Source: an uncultured Bacteroidota bacterium
GTDB lineage: Bacteria > Bacteroidota > Bacteroidia > Flavobacteriales > TMED113
Length of the DNA: 53,660 bases
NCBI GenBank assembly: GCA_902520385.1
Contig: CABYOB010000004.1
Span: 1 to 53,660, forward strand
Direction of reading: 5' to 3'
The notes under the pieces were generated by a model. It worked only from the letters and a program-made list of their open reading frames with translations, was not told the DNA's origin and ran no database searches. Below, piece by piece: positions 3,143 to 24,877 of this stretch (its first letter is position 1; every line of letters begins with the position of its first letter). The position numbers and the translations under genes are program-made.

Positions 3143-4295
3143 TTTTTTTGTAGGGGTACCTAATAGACTGCGCTTCACAAACTTTTTTATATAATAAATC
3201 CTTAAACTTATTAAGTGTTTTTTTATTTAAAGCAGATATAAAAACACTATTATTATTTGTTTTTTTCATCCACGTTTTTTCCCAATATGCAAGATCATAA
3301 TTTTCAAATCCCCACTCACTTAAATCATCAGATTCTTTTTTTGTGTATGAAAACAAATCTATTTTATTAAATACAATTATTTGGGGCTTTTCTAGAGCAC
3401 TAAGTTCTTTGAGTGTCTTATTCACGGACTTCATATGTTCTTCAAAATTAGGATTAGAAATATCCACCACATGTATTAAAATGTCTGACTCTCGGACTTC
3501 ATCTAAAGTGGATTTAAATGATTCAACTAATTGGGTTGGCAGTTTACGAATAAAACCCACAGTATCAGATAACAAGAAAGGAGTATTGTTTATGACTACC
3601 TTTTTCATTTTAGTGTCTAATGTTGCAAATAATTTATTTTCTGCTAAAACCTTTGATTTACTAATAATGTTCATTAATGTAGATTTGCCGACATTAGTAT
3701 ATCCAACTAAAGAAACTCTAATCATATCTTTTCTTTTTTTTCTTTGGGTTTCCATTTGAATATCAATTTTTTTTAGTTGTGATTTCAAAAGGCTAATCTT
3801 TTTTCTAATCACTCTTCTATCTGTTTCAATTTCTTTTTCACCAGGACCTTTCATTCCAATACCCCCTTTTTGCTTTGATAAGTGAGTCCAAAGATTAGTT
3901 AGTCTTGGTAAAAGATATTGGTATTGAGCTAATTCAACCTGTGTTCTTGAATATGCTGTAGATGCTCGAAATGCAAAAATATCTAAGATTAAATTTGTTC
4001 GGTCTAAAATTTTACAATTTAAAATTCTTTCTATATTTCGTAGTTGGGATGGGGATAATTCATCATCAAAAATAACAACATCAATTTTTTCTGATTCTAA
4101 AAAATCTTTTACTTCATTGATCTTACCTTTTCCAATAAAAGACTTACTATTTTTTTTTAACATTTTTTGTAAAACTTTTTTTTTGGTTTCTGCACCAGCA
4201 GTTAAGGCTAGAAATTCAAGTTCATTAATAGACTCAATTGCAATATTTTCTGGTTGATTTTGAGTTATTATTCCAATTAAAAGTGCTTTTTCCAA
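3132..4295 (-). CDS. hflX: GTPase HflX
   Basis: HflX N-terminal domain plus G motifs 'GYTNVGKSTLMN', 'DTVGFIRKLP', 'NKID'. Confidence 0.93.
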   Translation of the reverse strand: MEKALLIGIITQNQPENIAIESINELEFLALTAGAETKKKVLQKMLKKNSKSFIGKGKINEVKDFLESEKIDVVIFDDELSPSQLRNIERILNCKILDRTNLILDIFAFRASTAYSRTQVELAQYQYLLPRLTNLWTHLSKQKGGIGMKGPGEKEIETDRRVIRKKISLLKSQLKKIDIQMETQRKKRKDMIRVSLVGYTNVGKSTLMNIISKSKVLAENKLFATLDTKMKKVVINNTPFLLSDTVGFIRKLPTQLVESFKSTLDEVRESDILIHVVDISNPNFEEHMKSVNKTLKELSALEKPQIIVFNKIDLFSYTKKESDDLSEWGFENYDLAYWEKTWMKKTNNNSVFISALNKKTLNKFKDLLYKKVCEAQSIRYPYKKITY

Positions 4296-4304
4296 GATAA
4301 TATA

Positions 4305-4673
4305 TTATTTATCTTGTCGTGCCTGAATAAAACTTTTTATAAACACTACCATAGCAAAAATGGAAGAAATTAGCATTACGCCAATTCTAAAAAACCTTAC
4401 AATATTAAATGTTGCATCTGGTCCCGGGCAAAATGTTTTGTATAGTGGAAAAATGAGAGCTAATAAAATCATTAACGTAAGTAAAACAACAATGTGAGCA
4501 ATTATTTTGTTTTCTTTTTTCAATCCAAATGTCAGTAATAATATAATAAGCCCAAAAATAGGAGCAACTAATGCGGACTTGTTGATATCACCATCCATTG
4601 TTGCTATAAAACCCCAGGATCCAAATATTATTAGAATGATACTATTAATTAAACTAGCTTGATATGGTCTCAT
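4305..4673 (-). CDS. Small integral membrane protein, unknown function
   Basis: 122 aa with several predicted TM helices; no recognised family. Confidence 0.6.
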   Translation of the reverse strand: MRPYQASLINSIILIIFGSWGFIATMDGDINKSALVAPIFGLIILLLTFGLKKENKIIAHIVVLLTLMILLALIFPLYKTFCPGPDATFNIVRFFRIGVMLISSIFAMVVFIKSFIQARQDK

Positions 4674-4740
4674 AAAAAAATGTTTTTATATTTATCTACT
4701 AAATTAATCAATTTTACCCTAAGTTTAGGCCATTATAGTT

Positions 4741-7593
4741 ATGAAAAAAAAACTCATCTTTATTTTTTTATTTCCGCTTATATTTTTTGGCCAAGAAAAC
4801 TTCCCTATTAATGGCGTTAAACAAACAGCACAAGCAACTCACGCATTTATAAATGTAAATATTTATTTAAATTATAATGAGAAAATTGAAGATGCAACTT
4901 TAATTATAAAAAATGACAAAATATTAGATGTTGGAAAAAATATTAAAATACCTGCGGAATCTATAATTCATGACTTAACTAATTTTACTATTTGCCCATC
5001 ATTTATAGATATTTTCACAGATTACGGTCAATCCAATGAGATTAAAAATGAAAAAACCATAGGATCTTGGAATGAAGCCCTGAATATAGAATATAATGCA
5101 GTTAATAATTTTTATATAAATAATAATGAAGCCAAAGGTTTTATTAATTCTGGATTTGGGCTTGTCAACTCATTAAAAAGAGATGGAATTATTAGGGGAA
5201 CATCCACGTTAGTTTCATTAACTTATGAAAAACCAAATACATCTATTTTTTTAAGCAAGTCAGCTTTATGTATGTCGTTTAATAAAGGCAGCTCCCCACA
5301 ATCTTATCCTAATTCATTAATGGGCTCTATTGCACTTTTAAGACAAGCATATTATGATTTAGATTGGTATGAAAATGGCTCTACGGGTCATGATAATTCT
5401 TTAGAAGCCTTTAGTCAAAATAAAAATTTACCAAAGATATTTGAAGTTAGTGATTATCAGTCAATTTTTAGGGCTAATGAAATAGGTGAAGAGTTTGATG
5501 ATAATTATATAATTAAAACATCAGGAGATGAATATCAAAGAATTAAGGAGTTAAAAAATATAAATAGAAAATTAATAGTTCCTTTAAACTTCCCAAATAT
5601 TGATTTGCCAAATGATCCATATGAAAATTTAGAAACATCCGTAAAGCAATTAAAACATTGGGAGAGCGCGCCATTTAATGCATCTATATTATCAGAAAAT
5701 AACATACAAATTGCTTTTACAACTTTTGGGCAAAGTCCCACAGATTTTTTTAATAATTTGAAAACGGCTATTTCGTGTGGCCTATCTCAGAAAAGTGCTT
5801 TAAAAGCTTTAACCTATAATCCTGCAAAATTCTTAAAAGTATATAATCAAGTTGGATCTATAGCTAAAGGAAAAAAAGCAAATTTTATAATTTTTAGTGG
5901 CGATTTGTTTTCAAAAGATTTTTTAATATATGAAAATTGGATTAATGGAAAAAAGCATGAAATAAATAATAAGAATATTGTAAAATTATTAGGTAATCAT
6001 TCATTATTTGTAGATGAAAAAGAGATTGGAGACATTCAGTTTAATCTTGCAAACAAAAAGTTGGTTGGAAAATTTTCAGGTGATAGTTTAGAAAAAAGAT
6101 TTTTAACTAATATAGAATTAGTTGGTGATAGAATTTCTTTTTCACAAAAGAATAATTTGTATAGCGGCATTTTTGAATCAGACATTTTTGGTGAGATGAG
6201 GGACTCCTTGAGTGATTGGAGAAATTGGAGATTAGTAAAAAATAATAGAAAGACTCAGTCAGTAAAAAGCCCAGGAATAAAACAAAAAGATAGTGTAGAA
6301 ATTTTGTTTCCAAATATGGCCTATGGTTTAAAAGAACAACCTAAAAGAGAGTCGCTATTATTTAAAAACGCAACTGTTTGGACTAATGAGTCTAGGGGTA
6401 TTATTCAAAACTGTGATGTTGCTATAGAAAGGGGTAAAATTATTGCAGTAGGAAAAAAAATCAAAAAAAGTATTTTTAGAAACTCTAAAGATGTTAGGGT
6501 TATTGATGCGTCAGGAAAACATATTACCTCTGGTATAATTGATGAGCATTCCCATATAGCAATAAGTAAAGGTGTTAATGAGGGGACTCAGGCTATAACA
6601 TCTGAGGTTAGAATAGGAGATGTTATTAATGCAAATGATATAAATATATATAGGCAACTAGCTGGGGGCGTTACAGTGGCTCAGTTATTACACGGCTCTG
6701 CGAATCCAATAGGTGGTCAATCAGCAATTATTAAATTGAGATGGGGGCAGTCAGCTGAAAAATTAAAGTTCTTAAAATCAAAACCTTTTATCAAATTTGC
6801 CTTAGGGGAAAATGTAAAGCAATCTAATTGGGGCGGGCGGCATAAAACTAGATTTCCTCAAACAAGAATGGGCGTTGAACAAATCATGTATGATGCGTTT
6901 AGCAGAGCAAAAGAATATGAATATAATATTAAAAATTATAAAAAAAATAAAACATTAAAGCCAAGAAAAGATCTAGAGCTAGATGCGCTAGTTGAGATAT
7001 TAAATAAAAAAAGATTTATTACGTGCCATTCCTATGTTCAATCCGAAATAAATATGTTAATTAATTTAGCCGAAGCCTTTGATTTTAAAGTCAACACATT
7101 TACTCATGTATTAGAAGGTTATAAAGTGGCAGATAAATTAAAAAAACATGGCGCAAGTGCATCTACTTTTTCTGATTGGTGGGCATATAAGTATGAGGTT
7201 AATGATGCTATTCCTCATAATGCATCAATTTTGAACAAAATGGGTGTTAATACAGCTATAAACTCGGATGATGCAGAAATGGGAAGAAGGCTAAATCAAG
7301 AAGCGGCCAAAATGGTTAAATATGGCAACACATCACAAGAAGATGCTTGGAAAATGATTACATTAAACCCTGCTAAAATGTTACAAATAGATAAATATGT
7401 TGGAAGTCTTCGAAAAAATAAAGATGCTGATATTGTGGTTTGGTCAGATAACCCATTATCTATTTATTCAATAGTTGAGGCAACTTATGTGGACGGGAGG
7501 TGTTATTTTTCTGTTCCAAAAGATAAAGAACATAGAACTTACATTCGTGAAGAAAGAAATAGAATATTAAATAAATTAATGAATAAAAATTAA
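4741..7593 (+). CDS. Exported two-domain amidohydrolase (imidazolonepropionase-like)
   Basis: Signal peptide; C-terminal half has 'ITSGIIDEHSHIAI' HxH and 'NSDDAEMGRRLNQEAAKM'; N-terminal half is amidohydrolase-like without HxH. Confidence 0.85.
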   Translation: MKKKLIFIFLFPLIFFGQENFPINGVKQTAQATHAFINVNIYLNYNEKIEDATLIIKNDKILDVGKNIKIPAESIIHDLTNFTICPSFIDIFTDYGQSNEIKNEKTIGSWNEALNIEYNAVNNFYINNNEAKGFINSGFGLVNSLKRDGIIRGTSTLVSLTYEKPNTSIFLSKSALCMSFNKGSSPQSYPNSLMGSIALLRQAYYDLDWYENGSTGHDNSLEAFSQNKNLPKIFEVSDYQSIFRANEIGEEFDDNYIIKTSGDEYQRIKELKNINRKLIVPLNFPNIDLPNDPYENLETSVKQLKHWESAPFNASILSENNIQIAFTTFGQSPTDFFNNLKTAISCGLSQKSALKALTYNPAKFLKVYNQVGSIAKGKKANFIIFSGDLFSKDFLIYENWINGKKHEINNKNIVKLLGNHSLFVDEKEIGDIQFNLANKKLVGKFSGDSLEKRFLTNIELVGDRISFSQKNNLYSGIFESDIFGEMRDSLSDWRNWRLVKNNRKTQSVKSPGIKQKDSVEILFPNMAYGLKEQPKRESLLFKNATVWTNESRGIIQNCDVAIERGKIIAVGKKIKKSIFRNSKDVRVIDASGKHITSGIIDEHSHIAISKGVNEGTQAITSEVRIGDVINANDINIYRQLAGGVTVAQLLHGSANPIGGQSAIIKLRWGQSAEKLKFLKSKPFIKFALGENVKQSNWGGRHKTRFPQTRMGVEQIMYDAFSRAKEYEYNIKNYKKNKTLKPRKDLELDALVEILNKKRFITCHSYVQSEINMLINLAEAFDFKVNTFTHVLEGYKVADKLKKHGASASTFSDWWAYKYEVNDAIPHNASILNKMGVNTAINSDDAEMGRRLNQEAAKMVKYGNTSQEDAWKMITLNPAKMLQIDKYVGSLRKNKDADIVVWSDNPLSIYSIVEATYVDGRCYFSVPKDKEHRTYIREERNRILNKLMNKN

Positions 7594-16056: not shown

Positions 16057-16752
16057 ATGATTCCATTTGGGACACTATTTAATGTTGCTACTGTATTAAT
16101 TGGAAGCACATTAGGTCTTATATTTAAAAAAATGATCAACCCTGAATTAAACAAAAAAGTTTTTTTTGTGATGGGTTTGTTTACATTGGTTTTAGGATTT
16201 AGTATGTCCATTAAAAGTTCAGATTTCATATTAATGTTCTTGTCTCTTGTTTTTGGAACAATGTATGGTGAGTATTGTAATTTAGATAAATTGATTACAA
16301 ATTTTACTGAAAAAATTAAAATCAAAATTAATGTAAAGGACACAAAATTTACTGATGGTATAGTTACTGCGTTTTTACTTTTTTGTATTGGGTCAATGAC
16401 CATTGTAGGAGCTATTGATGAGGGTTTGGGAAAAACACCAGACATATTATTTACTAAGTCGGTGATGGATGGAATTAGTTCAATAATTTTAGCATCAGCA
16501 TTTGGTGTTGGGGTTTTGTTTTCTATTTTCCCAATGCTAATTTTCCAAGGAGGAATAACCATTTTAGTTTTTTATTATAAAGATTTTTTACCAATAGAGT
16601 TGATAGATCATATAAGTGCAGTTGGAGGTGTGCTAATAATTGCAATTGGATTAAAAATATTAGGCTATAAAAAAATCAACCCAACCAATATGCTTCCCTC
16701 ACTTTTATTTTTAGTGTTGTTGTTTTTTTTAAAAAAAGAATTAGGTATTTAA
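16057..16752 (+). CDS. DUF554 family membrane protein
   Basis: 'GTLFNVATVLIGSTLGLIFKK', 'GSMTIVGAIDEGL', 'LIIAIGLKILGYKKINPTNMLPSL'. Confidence 0.88.
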   Translation: MIPFGTLFNVATVLIGSTLGLIFKKMINPELNKKVFFVMGLFTLVLGFSMSIKSSDFILMFLSLVFGTMYGEYCNLDKLITNFTEKIKIKINVKDTKFTDGIVTAFLLFCIGSMTIVGAIDEGLGKTPDILFTKSVMDGISSIILASAFGVGVLFSIFPMLIFQGGITILVFYYKDFLPIELIDHISAVGGVLIIAIGLKILGYKKINPTNMLPSLLFLVLLFFLKKELGI

Positions 16753-16761
16753 TTTATTTTT

Positions 16762-16769
16762 TAATTTTG
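16762..16769 (+). promoter_or_regulatory. Bacteroidota-type -7 element upstream of candidate ncRNA
   Basis: TAATTTTG matches TAnnTTTG; the -33 element is weak. Confidence 0.4.
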
Positions 16770-16775
16770 TAATAG

Positions 16776-16860
16776 CATCAAGAGTTACTTGAAAGTATGC
16801 CAACCGACCCTAACCAGGGCGGCGGTGGAAAAAAGATGTGAGGTGATCATCCTAAAACAA
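16776..16860 (+). ncRNA. Candidate structured small RNA (family unknown)
   Basis: GC-rich island in an AT-rich convergent intergenic region; hairpins tact-tgaa-agta and CCA(a)CCG(a)CCCT-aacc-AGGG..CGG.TGG, then gatg..catc; no ORF. Confidence 0.45.
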
Positions 16861-16944
16861 TATGGTAATCAAATCACTATTTTTAATTGATGCAATAATG
16901 TTAAATGTTAAATTATTGTATTATGAAAAATATACGTAAAAAAA

Positions 16945-17265
16945 TCAGTCTTCATTTAGTAAGTTTTTTAAACCCAATCTTTTCAAAATTTTTTTTTCTT
17001 GTTTCCAAAAAAAATCAAATTGACCAAACAAAAAAGCAACTACTAAAAGAGTGAATTGATAGGCAATAAAAATAATTAAAATTCTAAGTGGGTAGTATAA
17101 ATACCAATTAAGTGAATCATTGTTTATTCCAAATAAGTTTAGTAGAGGTCTTGATATTAATAAAGAACTAAAACCGCTAATTGCAAAAACAATGTTTATT
17201 ATAAAAAACTGAAAATTGGAAGTAATCTCCCATTTAGACTTAAGCTTTTGAAACAACTTTAACAT
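16945..17265 (-). CDS. Small membrane protein, DUF6787-like
   Basis: 'KWEITSNFQFFIINIVFAISGFSSLLISRPLL...YQFTLLVVAFLFGQFDFFWKQEKK'; assigned from memory of the family pattern. Confidence 0.6.
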   Translation of the reverse strand: MLKLFQKLKSKWEITSNFQFFIINIVFAISGFSSLLISRPLLNLFGINNDSLNWYLYYPLRILIIFIAYQFTLLVVAFLFGQFDFFWKQEKKILKRLGLKNLLNED

Positions 17266-17791: not shown

Positions 17792-19231
17792 ATGAAAAAA
17801 TACTTTAATTTTGATTTAACAGAACAACAATTAAAGGTTTTTAATTCTTTAAAAATCTTTGTTCAAAACCACAGTGAAAAAGTATTTATTTTAAAAGGTT
17901 ATGCCGGCACAGGTAAAACAACCCTAATGTTTGGGTTAATAAAATATCTTCAAGAAATAAAAAAAAATTTCGATTTACTTTCATCAACTGGTAGGGCAGC
18001 CAAAATATTATCAGATTTAACAGGTCACCGAGCCTCCACTATTCATAGTAGAATATACACATTTAGTGATTTAAGTGATGATTTAGAGGATATACATAAG
18101 AAAAGAAAAAAAAACATCACAGATAATAAAAGTTTAAATTTATTATTTTCTCTATCACAAATAGATGCAGATCAGTCAAAAAAAAAAATTATATACATCA
18201 TTGATGAGTCATCTATGATATCTAATCAAAAAGATAAATCAATTTCTTTTGCTCAATTTGGGGACGGAGAGCTTTTAAATGATTTAATAAATTATGACCC
18301 AAACGGTAAATTTATATTTATAGGAGACCCTTGTCAATTACCCCCGATTAAACAAAAAGAATCCCCAGCTTTAAGCAAAGAATACATAGAGCAGAAATTT
18401 AATTTTAATGTAAAGGAACACATGCTTACCACAATAGTGAGACAGCAAGGGGTCAATAATGGAATAATACAAGCATCTTTAAATACTAGACGTCTTTTTT
18501 ATAATCCCCCTCAAATTAAATGGCCTAAGCTCCCATTAGGAAAGAATAATAATATTAAATTATTGAGTTCAGATTTTCAGTTAGCTAATGAGTATCTTAA
18601 AGAAATCAATGAAAATGGCACAGAAAATACTACTATTATTTGTCAATCAAATAGAGATTGTAAGGAGCTTAATAATTTTGTTAGGTCTAGATTATTTAAA
18701 GATACTTCCAGTATTCAAGTAAATGATTTATTATTAATAACTCAAAACAATCAAAAAGCAAATTTAGTTAATGGAGATTTGGTAAAAGTCTTAAGTATTG
18801 CCCCAAAAGAAAATAGATGTGGTCTTTCTTTTTGGGAGGTTCAGGCCCAAGAGTTATCATCTAAAAGGATAATAAATTCTTTATTAATTAATGATATTCC
18901 CTATTCAAATTCGACAAATATAAGTGAGGAAAAACATAAAGACCTAATGATTGATTATTATTTGAGAATGAAAGAAAAGGGAATTAAACAAGGAGATAGA
19001 TTATTTAAAGATAACATGTTGAAAGATGAATATTTAAATGCGATTAAATGTGTGTTTGGGTATGCTTTAACATGCCATAAGTCTCAAGGTGGAGAATGGG
19101 ATAAGGTTTTTTTATATATTAAACAAAAAATTTATGGAATTCCTAGACCAGGATTATTTCAGTGGTGGTACACAGCAATTACTAGAGCTAGAAAAAAATT
19201 ATTTATTGTAGATGATTGGTTTATTTCGTAA
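17792..19231 (+). CDS. RecD/Dda-like SF1 DNA helicase
   Basis: 'LKGYAGTGKTTLMFGL' Walker A, 'IIYIIDESSMIS' Walker B, 'FIFIGDPCQLPPI', 'YALTCHKSQGGEWDKVFLYI', 'WWYTAITRARKKLFIV'. Confidence 0.9.
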   Translation: MKKYFNFDLTEQQLKVFNSLKIFVQNHSEKVFILKGYAGTGKTTLMFGLIKYLQEIKKNFDLLSSTGRAAKILSDLTGHRASTIHSRIYTFSDLSDDLEDIHKKRKKNITDNKSLNLLFSLSQIDADQSKKKIIYIIDESSMISNQKDKSISFAQFGDGELLNDLINYDPNGKFIFIGDPCQLPPIKQKESPALSKEYIEQKFNFNVKEHMLTTIVRQQGVNNGIIQASLNTRRLFYNPPQIKWPKLPLGKNNNIKLLSSDFQLANEYLKEINENGTENTTIICQSNRDCKELNNFVRSRLFKDTSSIQVNDLLLITQNNQKANLVNGDLVKVLSIAPKENRCGLSFWEVQAQELSSKRIINSLLINDIPYSNSTNISEEKHKDLMIDYYLRMKEKGIKQGDRLFKDNMLKDEYLNAIKCVFGYALTCHKSQGGEWDKVFLYIKQKIYGIPRPGLFQWWYTAITRARKKLFIVDDWFIS

Positions 19232-22686: not shown

Positions 22687-23138
22687 TATTTACATAAATA
22701 ATTAATTATTTCCTTCCAACTTGGAAACGCACTACTGCCAAATTGTATCCATTCCCCTTTAAATTCTTTAGCGCCATTCCATGGGTTATCATCAATTAAA
22801 TAATCTCCAAGTTGTAAGTGTTTATGATGTGATAGGATTAATTTTTTTCTAATATATGCCCCTAAGTTTTTCTCCACCCAAAGTCTTTTATGTGTCCATG
22901 AATCATAGTTATCCCATGATGGAGAGCTTAGAATATATACATCAAATTTTTTTATTAAAATCTCAAGGCTTTCTTTAGCGCCATTGATTAAGTCTAAATT
23001 TTTAAAAATATTAGGTAATAAATCAGGCCTGCCAGGGTATAATTCTTTTTGAGGGTGTTTTTTTGCAGCTTTATTAAAATCACACAAAACCCCATCCATA
23101 TCTACATAAATAATTTTTTTTCGAACGCTGGCTTTCAT
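22686..23138 (-). CDS. 5'(3')-deoxyribonucleotidase-like HAD phosphatase (NT5C family)
   Basis: 'VDMDGVLCDFN' (DxDG), 'VYILSSPSWDNYDSWTHKRLWVEKNLG', 'YLIDDNPWNGAKEFKGEWIQFGS'. Confidence 0.85.
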   Translation of the reverse strand: MKASVRKKIIYVDMDGVLCDFNKAAKKHPQKELYPGRPDLLPNIFKNLDLINGAKESLEILIKKFDVYILSSPSWDNYDSWTHKRLWVEKNLGAYIRKKLILSHHKHLQLGDYLIDDNPWNGAKEFKGEWIQFGSSAFPSWKEIINYLCK

Positions 23139-24877
23139 TATCTAACCCTAATTTTTATTAAAGATGAATTAATTGTGTTACTTAATGATCTAAATACAGG
23201 TTTTACTTCAATAGAGTCTCCCACATTAACTAAAGTTGCTAACTGACTCATTTCAATTTCTTTAGAGTAAGTTGTTGTTGAGCTTGATGAATCCTTATGT
23301 TTCCAGTTTTCTTCTGTCCAGATTGGTTGTTGGCTTGTTCGATTTGGAAACCCAGTTTTTTCTATTGTAATATCTCCTGAGCTTTTAGCATTTAGAGGCC
23401 ACGCAACTTGAGTTACTCTATGTCCTTCATTAAAATTAGCACAAAATTCTAATTCTATTTTTAAGTACTTTTTTGTTGGGTTACCTTTATTAATTACTGT
23501 AGCACTTTTTGTCAAACAAACAATATTGTCTGGTTTCATCATTAGCCAATTATTAATTGAGTTTTTACATTTAGTATTATTAACAGGGCAAGGGGCAATT
23601 AAAAATAATTGCACAAGTACTTTTCGTATCAACGATAAACTAGAATCATTATGAAATGCTCCAAATTGACCATCCCATTTTATAGGATCAACATACCCAA
23701 TCTCTTGCTCATATAAACTTGAACTAATCGGAAAAGTGTATCCATGATTCATTAGTCTTTTTGTAGCGCATTCAAATACATCTAACATTAATCGAAATAC
23801 TCCTTTTTGTTGTAGAGCCCCTAATCTTTGCCTAGCCTGATCCCAATAATGAGCTGGGTAAACAGAAATTAATGCATTTATATAATTTTCTAAAGTATCT
23901 ATAACATCTTGATTGTTATAATTGTAATCAAGAGTTCCGTTTTCAAACCATTTACAAAGGAAATCATTTGTTAATCTAAATACATCTACAATATCCATTC
24001 TAATTGTGATATCTCGCTCAATCATTGTTACCCTGCCCTCAGGTTGAACATTGGCCCATGGAGAGCTTCCAAGATTTAAACCAGAAGCAATTTCATAAGA
24101 CTTTAATCTAATTCTTCCTTTTCGTGTATTTTGATTATATGTTGGTTTAAGTCGGAATTTAGCTAATAAAAACTCTTTATGTAGTTTACTTAACTGAACT
24201 GCAGCAGAAGTAATTTCGGTAAATATTTTGGCAACTTCAGTCATGGTAAAGCCATCATTTTTACATAACCAAGTTGAAAAAACTTTTTCTTTATGATTGT
24301 TATTTTGGTCAGGAGAATAAGACATTCCTCTTATCCTGTGCTGACCATCAACAATAACAGCTGGTCGGTCACAATAATTACAATTTGGGCAACAATCGGC
24401 ATACCATCCTAATTTATCAGATCCATAAGTTTGTTCAACTGACCAATTACAATTTGGACAGTTTTGAAAACACCAATCAGCGGGATTTAAAGATCCTTCA
24501 AAAGTATCGGCCCTTTCTGAATCAGTTACATTTAAATCTTTAAAAAAAAGCACACTATTGTTTGGGCTAATAGGTCGTCCACTTCCTTTCCACCAGCTAT
24601 TAATTTCAGGGACACGGTCTATATTTAATTTTCTTTGCCAAGGAATATCTTGTTGCAAAAATAAATCAGCCATTTCTTTATTATTTCTATTTCCTATTTC
24701 AGGTGTTCTTGAAATTCTGTCTAATTCTTGAACAGTTAAAGAAATACAACGAATTTTACGCCCGTGCTGATCTATAAACATACCCCACAAATTTATTTCA
24801 TGTTGGTCAGGTTGTTCATATAAATAAATAGGCTCACTAGATGAATTAACAGGAGCTCGCCACTTAATTTTTGTCAT
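23138..24877 (-). CDS. DGQHR-domain (DndB/ParB-like superfamily) protein with Cys-rich zinc-binding cluster
   Basis: 'AVIVDGQHRIRGM' (24335-24349 for DGQHR), 'FTEITSAAVQLSKLHKEFL'; preceded by CFQNCPNCNW...DCCPNCNYC. Confidence 0.8.
   Translation of the reverse strand: MTKIKWRAPVNSSSEPIYLYEQPDQHEINLWGMFIDQHGRKIRCISLTVQELDRISRTPEIGNRNNKEMADLFLQQDIPWQRKLNIDRVPEINSWWKGSGRPISPNNSVLFFKDLNVTDSERADTFEGSLNPADWCFQNCPNCNWSVEQTYGSDKLGWYADCCPNCNYCDRPAVIVDGQHRIRGMSYSPDQNNNHKEKVFSTWLCKNDGFTMTEVAKIFTEITSAAVQLSKLHKEFLLAKFRLKPTYNQNTRKGRIRLKSYEIASGLNLGSSPWANVQPEGRVTMIERDITIRMDIVDVFRLTNDFLCKWFENGTLDYNYNNQDVIDTLENYINALISVYPAHYWDQARQRLGALQQKGVFRLMLDVFECATKRLMNHGYTFPISSSLYEQEIGYVDPIKWDGQFGAFHNDSSLSLIRKVLVQLFLIAPCPVNNTKCKNSINNWLMMKPDNIVCLTKSATVINKGNPTKKYLKIELEFCANFNEGHRVTQVAWPLNAKSSGDITIEKTGFPNRTSQQPIWTEENWKHKDSSSSTTTYSKEIEMSQLATLVNVGDSIEVKPVFRSLSNTINSSLIKIRVR

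Follow-up and report, generated by a model that had tools for sequence, protein, structure and literature searches.

What kind of RNA is encoded by the GC-rich segment that separates two convergent genes in a Bacteroidota genome, and which gene might it control? The segment lies within the 53.7-kb stretch of DNA that was analysed here (referred to as the window). Its upstream neighbor at 16057-16752 of the plus strand encodes a DUF554 membrane protein (Pfam PF04474, E = 2e-69), and its convergent neighbor at 16945-17265 of the minus strand encodes a DUF6787 membrane protein (Pfam PF20584, E = 1.1e-23). An earlier note on this DNA had proposed that a structured RNA, preceded by a promoter, lies between these genes, had left it unclassified as matching no known riboswitch, and had called for an Rfam cmscan and for signs of covariation and conservation in relatives. 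The structured RNA and its promoter are borne out by the present analysis, and both covariation and conservation were found. The failure to place the RNA was an error, as the search matches it to a known class. The formerly unclassified "GC-rich RNA" is, as judged from its sequence, a SAM-I/IV riboswitch aptamer, and the copy in the window would be expected to bind SAM.

Assignment to the SAM-I/IV class

A covariance-model search of the entire window with 4227 Rfam families (cmscan) detected RF01725, the SAM-I/IV riboswitch, at positions 16770-16869 of the plus strand, over the full model length (1-99) and with a score of 47.8 bits (E = 8.6e-5) against a curated cut-off of 41.1 bits. This was the sole Rfam match within the window, where no other family exceeded its own cut-off and where neither a tRNA nor a tmRNA, searched for as alternative classes, was found. 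The genome to which the window belongs (a 779-kb assembly, 63% complete) contains one RF01725 match. We also built a model of our own, R1, on 19 copies that share the core CCAACCG..CGGTGG; it scores the window aptamer at 70.2 bits, a value to be read with the window sequence being among the rows of the model. Identity with SAM-I (the S-box) was considered and rejected, on the grounds that P2 is a simple hairpin and that Rfam clan competition retains only the SAM-I-IV match.

The features by which SAM-I/IV RNAs are recognized are present in the window: the score, the ligand-binding core, a P2 without internal loop, P4 and the pseudoknot. Downstream of the window RNA there is no gene for methionine or SAM metabolism, such as is seen with those relatives that precede metK; gene context is not part of the definition of the SAM-I/IV RNA. 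Folding energy could not prove the aptamer, because the 100-nt segment folds no better than its shuffles (z = -0.08) and its energy is insignificant as evidence; it is the covariance match and the relatives that do so. The 175-nt stretch that includes a downstream hairpin yields z = -2.53.

Architecture of the aptamer

The aptamer is closed by P1, in which GCATC (16775-16779) pairs with GATGT (16835-16839), as placed by the Rfam alignment and P1 pair counts. P2, placed by the Rfam alignment and covariation, is the sequence TACT-TGAA-AGTA at 16786-16797, a single helix of four pairs with a 4-nt loop and a single bulged base at its foot, which has neither the internal loop and kink-turn of SAM-I nor a PK-1. 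P3 (16800-16828) joins the invariant core CCAACCG...CGGTGG to an inner stem and in the window reads CC-A-(A)-CCG-(A)-CCCU-AACC-AGGG-(CGG)-CGG-U-GG, with a 3-nt CGG bulge vs CA in most relatives. P4 has the form AGG-loop-CCT (16841-16853; Rfam alignment, P4 covariation), and the 3' tail contributes TGGT (16863-16866), which is complementary to ACCA in the P3 loop (16813-16816) and would form the pseudoknot. The SAM-binding core, consisting of CAACC...GGUG in P3 and the A-U/U-A pairs of P1, is intact in the window and invariant or almost so in the 61 related copies described below. Contact of these bases with SAM is known from SAM-I structures.

Much of this architecture had been recognized before. 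The GC-rich P3 stem-loop and the tact-tgaa-agta hairpin, which is P2, are both present as described, and the aptamer indeed contains no ORF. The "gatg-N9-catc" hairpin was a misreading, since GATGT pairs with GCATC in P1 and the real 3' hairpin is P4 (AGG/CCU). The extent given in the earlier note, 16762-16860, covers the 5' part and is too short, as the element runs on to an anti-P1 strand and a start-codon hairpin that ends at 16923-16925.

Relatives and covariation

Within the family, 2 of 12 genomes contain RF01725 matches, as do 47 of 398 genomes of the order; R1 finds matches in 19 of the 398 order genomes and in 32 of 395 genomes of the class. Loci taken from Bacteroidia genomes yielded 61 R1 copies. 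When these are aligned, 91.8% of cells are paired vs 75.1 in shuffles. Cells with double changes number 275, as compared with 94.5 for the shuffles and no more than 55 after the partners have been shifted by 1-3 columns; the alignment was fitted to the proposed structure and the counts are thus biased towards it, although they exceed the shifted controls by a wide margin. Compensatory changes are distributed over P1, P2, the inner part of P3 and P4, whereas outer P3 is almost invariant, its six pairs being kept in 60-61 of the 61 relatives. Within each copy, the 3' tail is complementary to the P3 loop to a greater degree than in 200 of 200 swaps between copies, and the strands differ between lineages, with ACCA/UGGU in the window vs ACCC/GGGU in two genomes of another family (G065 and G072). 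A search of IMG/VR with the close pattern GAGTTACN{2,6}AGTATRCCAACCG revealed no viral copy; two of the five genome matches to this pattern (L081 and L082) were set aside as not being aptamers.

Several of the Bacteroidia copies lie directly upstream of metK, the gene for S-adenosylmethionine synthetase (PF00438), a position that fits SAM sensing. The Bacteroidota subclass of SAM-I/IV, with its one shared start-codon platform, precedes metK as well as many small proteins of unknown function, which are thereby tied to SAM levels, and its copies sometimes stand in rows of two or three. A tandem of aptamers ~150 nt apart is found upstream of metK at 3612-3856 of the minus strand in locus L131 (G433:C87). 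Three consecutive switches occupy 3273-5219 of locus L126 (G664:C2:531500-540000), with a small gene after each; the predicted proteins, of 127, 127 and 231 aa, show no Pfam match above cut-off, and in the third a cluster of cysteines and histidines resembles a CHC2 zinc finger by eye. In phmmer comparisons the switch-controlled small proteins form families across Bacteroidia, one (family A) with members at L054, L060, L135, L138 and L148, another (family B) at L126_3273 and L140; a 239-aa protein at L072 looks like a fusion of family B and family A. By the position of their switches, these families and the L072 protein would all be tied to SAM.

Other members of the subclass (L134, L145 and L130, from 4692 onward) lie upstream of a gene for a MoxR-like AAA ATPase, and in L130 a gene for a vWA-like protein follows two genes further on. 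A separate RF01725 group with the core GCAACCTGC..CAAGGTGC, represented by L017-L023 and similar Flavobacteriales loci, precedes genes for membrane proteins of ~440 aa that resemble NhaC-type transporters by eye and whose first 110 residues have no Pfam match.

Promoter and expression platform

The -7 box that had been noted upstream of the segment is real. The sequence TAATTTTG at 16762-16769 of the plus strand conforms to the Bacteroidota type (TAnnTTTG), and its G lies 6 nt upstream of the first base of P1, near which transcription would be expected to start. Boxes of this type occur in 25 of 54 related copies when the region from -25 to +6 of the aptamer start is searched, at -7 to -12 and nearly all of them at -7 to -9, as compared with 1.5% of control windows. 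No sigma-70 promoter was found upstream on the plus strand, where the Bacteroidota box fits instead, and no terminator-like site was detected on this strand in the scanned stretch.

Downstream of the aptamer, TTGATGC (16887-16893, plus strand) is complementary to the 5' strand of P1 when this is extended to GCATCAA. We refer to it as the anti-P1 strand; across the relatives, its complementarity exceeded that of 200 of 200 swapped controls. It overlaps a hairpin of 12 bp (16888-16923, plus strand; TGATGCAATAAT..ATTATTGTATTA; z = -3.37) whose 3' arm reaches as far as the A of an ATG, and the complementarity of this start-codon hairpin in the relatives likewise exceeded 200 of 200 swapped controls. 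The layout is common to the relatives, in which the ATG is typically 50-60 nt downstream of the aptamer. In the alternative-pairing model, GCATC has as its partner either 16835-16839 (SAM bound) or, as part of GCATCAA, 16887-16893 (no SAM), and when the window RNA is forced into each of the two states they are nearly isoenergetic (-32.9 and -33.7 kcal/mol).

The anti-P1 strand and start hairpin have the layout of a translational OFF-switch, a direction that we infer from their geometry. The element would thus be a cis-acting SAM-I/IV riboswitch that is transcribed from its own promoter and represses translation. Binding of SAM would stabilize P1 (GCATC/GATGT) and leave TTGATGC free, so that the hairpin could form and bury the start codon (OFF); without SAM, GCATCAA would pair with TTGATGC, the hairpin would open and the ATG would be exposed (ON). 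We found no published description in the literature of such a platform for SAM-I/IV riboswitches.

A conserved riboswitch without an intact gene

The ATG to which the platform leads opens a frame of 43 codons (16923-17054, plus strand) that runs antisense to the DUF6787 gene from about its 8th codon. The first base of the ATG is 22 nt from the end of the convergent gene, and ~7 codons lie outside the DUF6787 antisense. Residues 19-43 match the related genome G003 (MAG SP39, of the same genus) only within its own DUF6787 antisense, ~210 nt past the ATG of the G003 switch. The 43-codon frame is probably not a gene but the remnant of a lost target. Two other ORFs were rejected as the controlled gene, one (16789-16890) that overlaps the aptamer and one (16862-16939) that starts in the pseudoknot strand, where G065 and G072 have no ATG. 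In G003, the ATG of the switch opens 10 codons only, and ORF-like pieces continue in other frames; the breaks are at runs of A and could be assembly errors or sites of slippage. The nearest switches, those of G065 and G072, have an intact ORF of 141 residues at the ATG, without a Pfam match, and no credible homologue of the gene that follows the G072 switch, which is nearly identical to that of the window, was found in the family of the window.

The RNA itself has been retained with little change. In G003 the same RNA follows DUF554 and lies beside the same DUF6787 gene, within which the G003 contig ends. Over 16766-16928 the window and G003 differ at 6 of 163 positions, while at fourfold sites they differ at 63 of 169 in aspS and 30 of 78 in DUF554 (37-38%), from which it follows that the RNA, including its start-codon control, has been under selection during the greater part of the period after these species separated. 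All pairs of P1, P2, P4, outer P3, the start hairpin and the pseudoknot survive the six changes, one of which removes the outermost anti-P1 pair; identity between the two sequences stops just past the ATG.

The genomic site is variable in the family. Neither the third genome of the genus (G004) nor any of the nine remaining family genomes contains the riboswitch; between DUF554 and DUF6787 of G004 the best score is 11.2 bits, which is at the level of chance. The two genes are 12 kb apart in G004 (L170, G004:C8:16000-30500), with many genes for secreted proteins of similar C-termini in this region, and most other family members have an antiporter-like gene after DUF554; hence the interval between DUF554 and DUF6787 is a variable one. 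In the window, the riboswitch precedes DUF6787 and the accessory genes begin past it, after 17265. The link to an accessory island that the earlier note had suggested would be no more than a possibility, as the G003 contig, which ends within DUF6787, does not reach the corresponding stretch. At the beginning of this accessory region, a RecD/PIF1-like helicase (17792-19231) matches the PADLOC candidate PDC-M16A (E = 3.6e-122) and is a possible defence gene. Further on, a 579-aa protein (23138-24877) carries a VDGQHR motif, DGQHR/DndB-like by eye, has no Pfam match and adjoins a 251-aa protein with a weak match to PADLOC PDC-M34B.

With DUF6787 ending only 22 nt from the ATG, and with the ORF of the sister genome broken in frame, the riboswitch has most likely been orphaned recently. 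The target gene after the ATG would have been lost from the window genome, and the corresponding small ORF would have been broken in the sister genome. We consider it probable that the element is an ordinary cis-acting, translation-repressing SAM-I/IV riboswitch that lost its target in the recent past. What is new here is a further copy of this riboswitch, complete and conserved, that is notable for having no intact gene, and that lets the loss of a riboswitch target be watched between two species. Some observations do not sit easily with this account: strong conservation is unexpected for a switch without a gene and requires recent loss in two lineages, the aptamer alone folds no better than shuffles, the P2 helix is a short one of 4 bp, and the CGG bulge is present in P3. 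The conservation of the RNA would fit either recent gene loss in each lineage or another role of the RNA.

Alternative readings

The riboswitch might still control a genuine small protein or peptide that evolves fast, encoded by the 43-codon frame or by the shifted ORF of G003, perhaps through slippage at the runs of A. The strict conservation of the start codon and hairpin would agree with such a product, as would the small and mutually unlike ORFs that the subclass often controls and the many relatives in which a small ORF without Pfam match follows the switch. We nevertheless regard it as unlikely, in view of the mere ~7 window codons outside the DUF6787 antisense, the lack of any shared sequence past the ATG in the window and G003 ORFs, and the 10 codons to which the G003 ORF is confined in the frame of its ATG. 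It seems quite unlikely, too, that the SAM riboswitch stayed under selection after the gene loss and is now a SAM-responsive RNA itself, either antisense to DUF6787 or in trans.

For an antisense role, a SAM-controlled transcript would extend into the convergent DUF6787 gene from its 3' end, lowering the expression of that gene, as an S-box element acts on ubiG-mccBA in Clostridium acetobutylicum (PMC9943018). The convergent geometry in the window, with 22 nt from the ATG to the DUF6787 stop, would suit this arrangement, and so would the lack of a terminator-like site on the plus strand of the scanned stretch and the conservation of an RNA that has no gene. Yet the platform is directed at a start codon and not at a terminator, the corresponding distance in G003 is ~190 nt, DUF6787 is not known to be connected with methionine, and in the relatives the switch precedes sense genes, all of which makes antisense control very improbable. 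An independent small RNA, sensing SAM and acting in trans in the way reported for SreA of Listeria, could account for ~160 nt that are conserved as a unit and immediately followed by unrelated sequence. That unit, however, includes the start codon and hairpin that control in cis would need, and neither a terminator-like site at the 3' end nor a candidate target was found; this we consider the most improbable of the readings. Our preference therefore stays with the recently orphaned cis-acting riboswitch.

Comparison with known systems

Antisense-acting riboswitches, a survey of which also includes cases beside pseudogenes (PMC9943018), resemble the window locus in that a convergent gene has its 3' end towards the riboswitch. 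They differ in that the described cases use a terminator, whereas the platform in the window is directed at a start codon and the neighboring gene lacks a known methionine link. SAM-I (S-box) riboswitches share the ligand-binding core and the Rfam clan of the window RNA, but in SAM-I the P2 contains a kink-turn and an internal loop, where the window RNA has a short unbroken P2 and a P3 pseudoknot. With SAM-IV, the window RNA has in common the core and the pseudoknot that joins the P3 loop to the 3' tail. SAM-IV has in addition P2a/P2b and a second pseudoknot, PK-1, formed from the P2 loop (PMC6890682), for which the P2 loop of four bases in the window leaves no room. The closest known system is the SAM-I/IV riboswitch itself (Rfam RF01725, SAM-I-IV-variant; Weinberg 2010, PMC2864571). 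The window copy departs from it in having no intact downstream gene and in using an anti-P1 strand and start-codon hairpin as its platform, and agrees with it in the P1-P4 layout, the core, the P2 without internal loop, the pseudoknot of P3 loop and 3' tail and, among its relatives, the presence of metK downstream.
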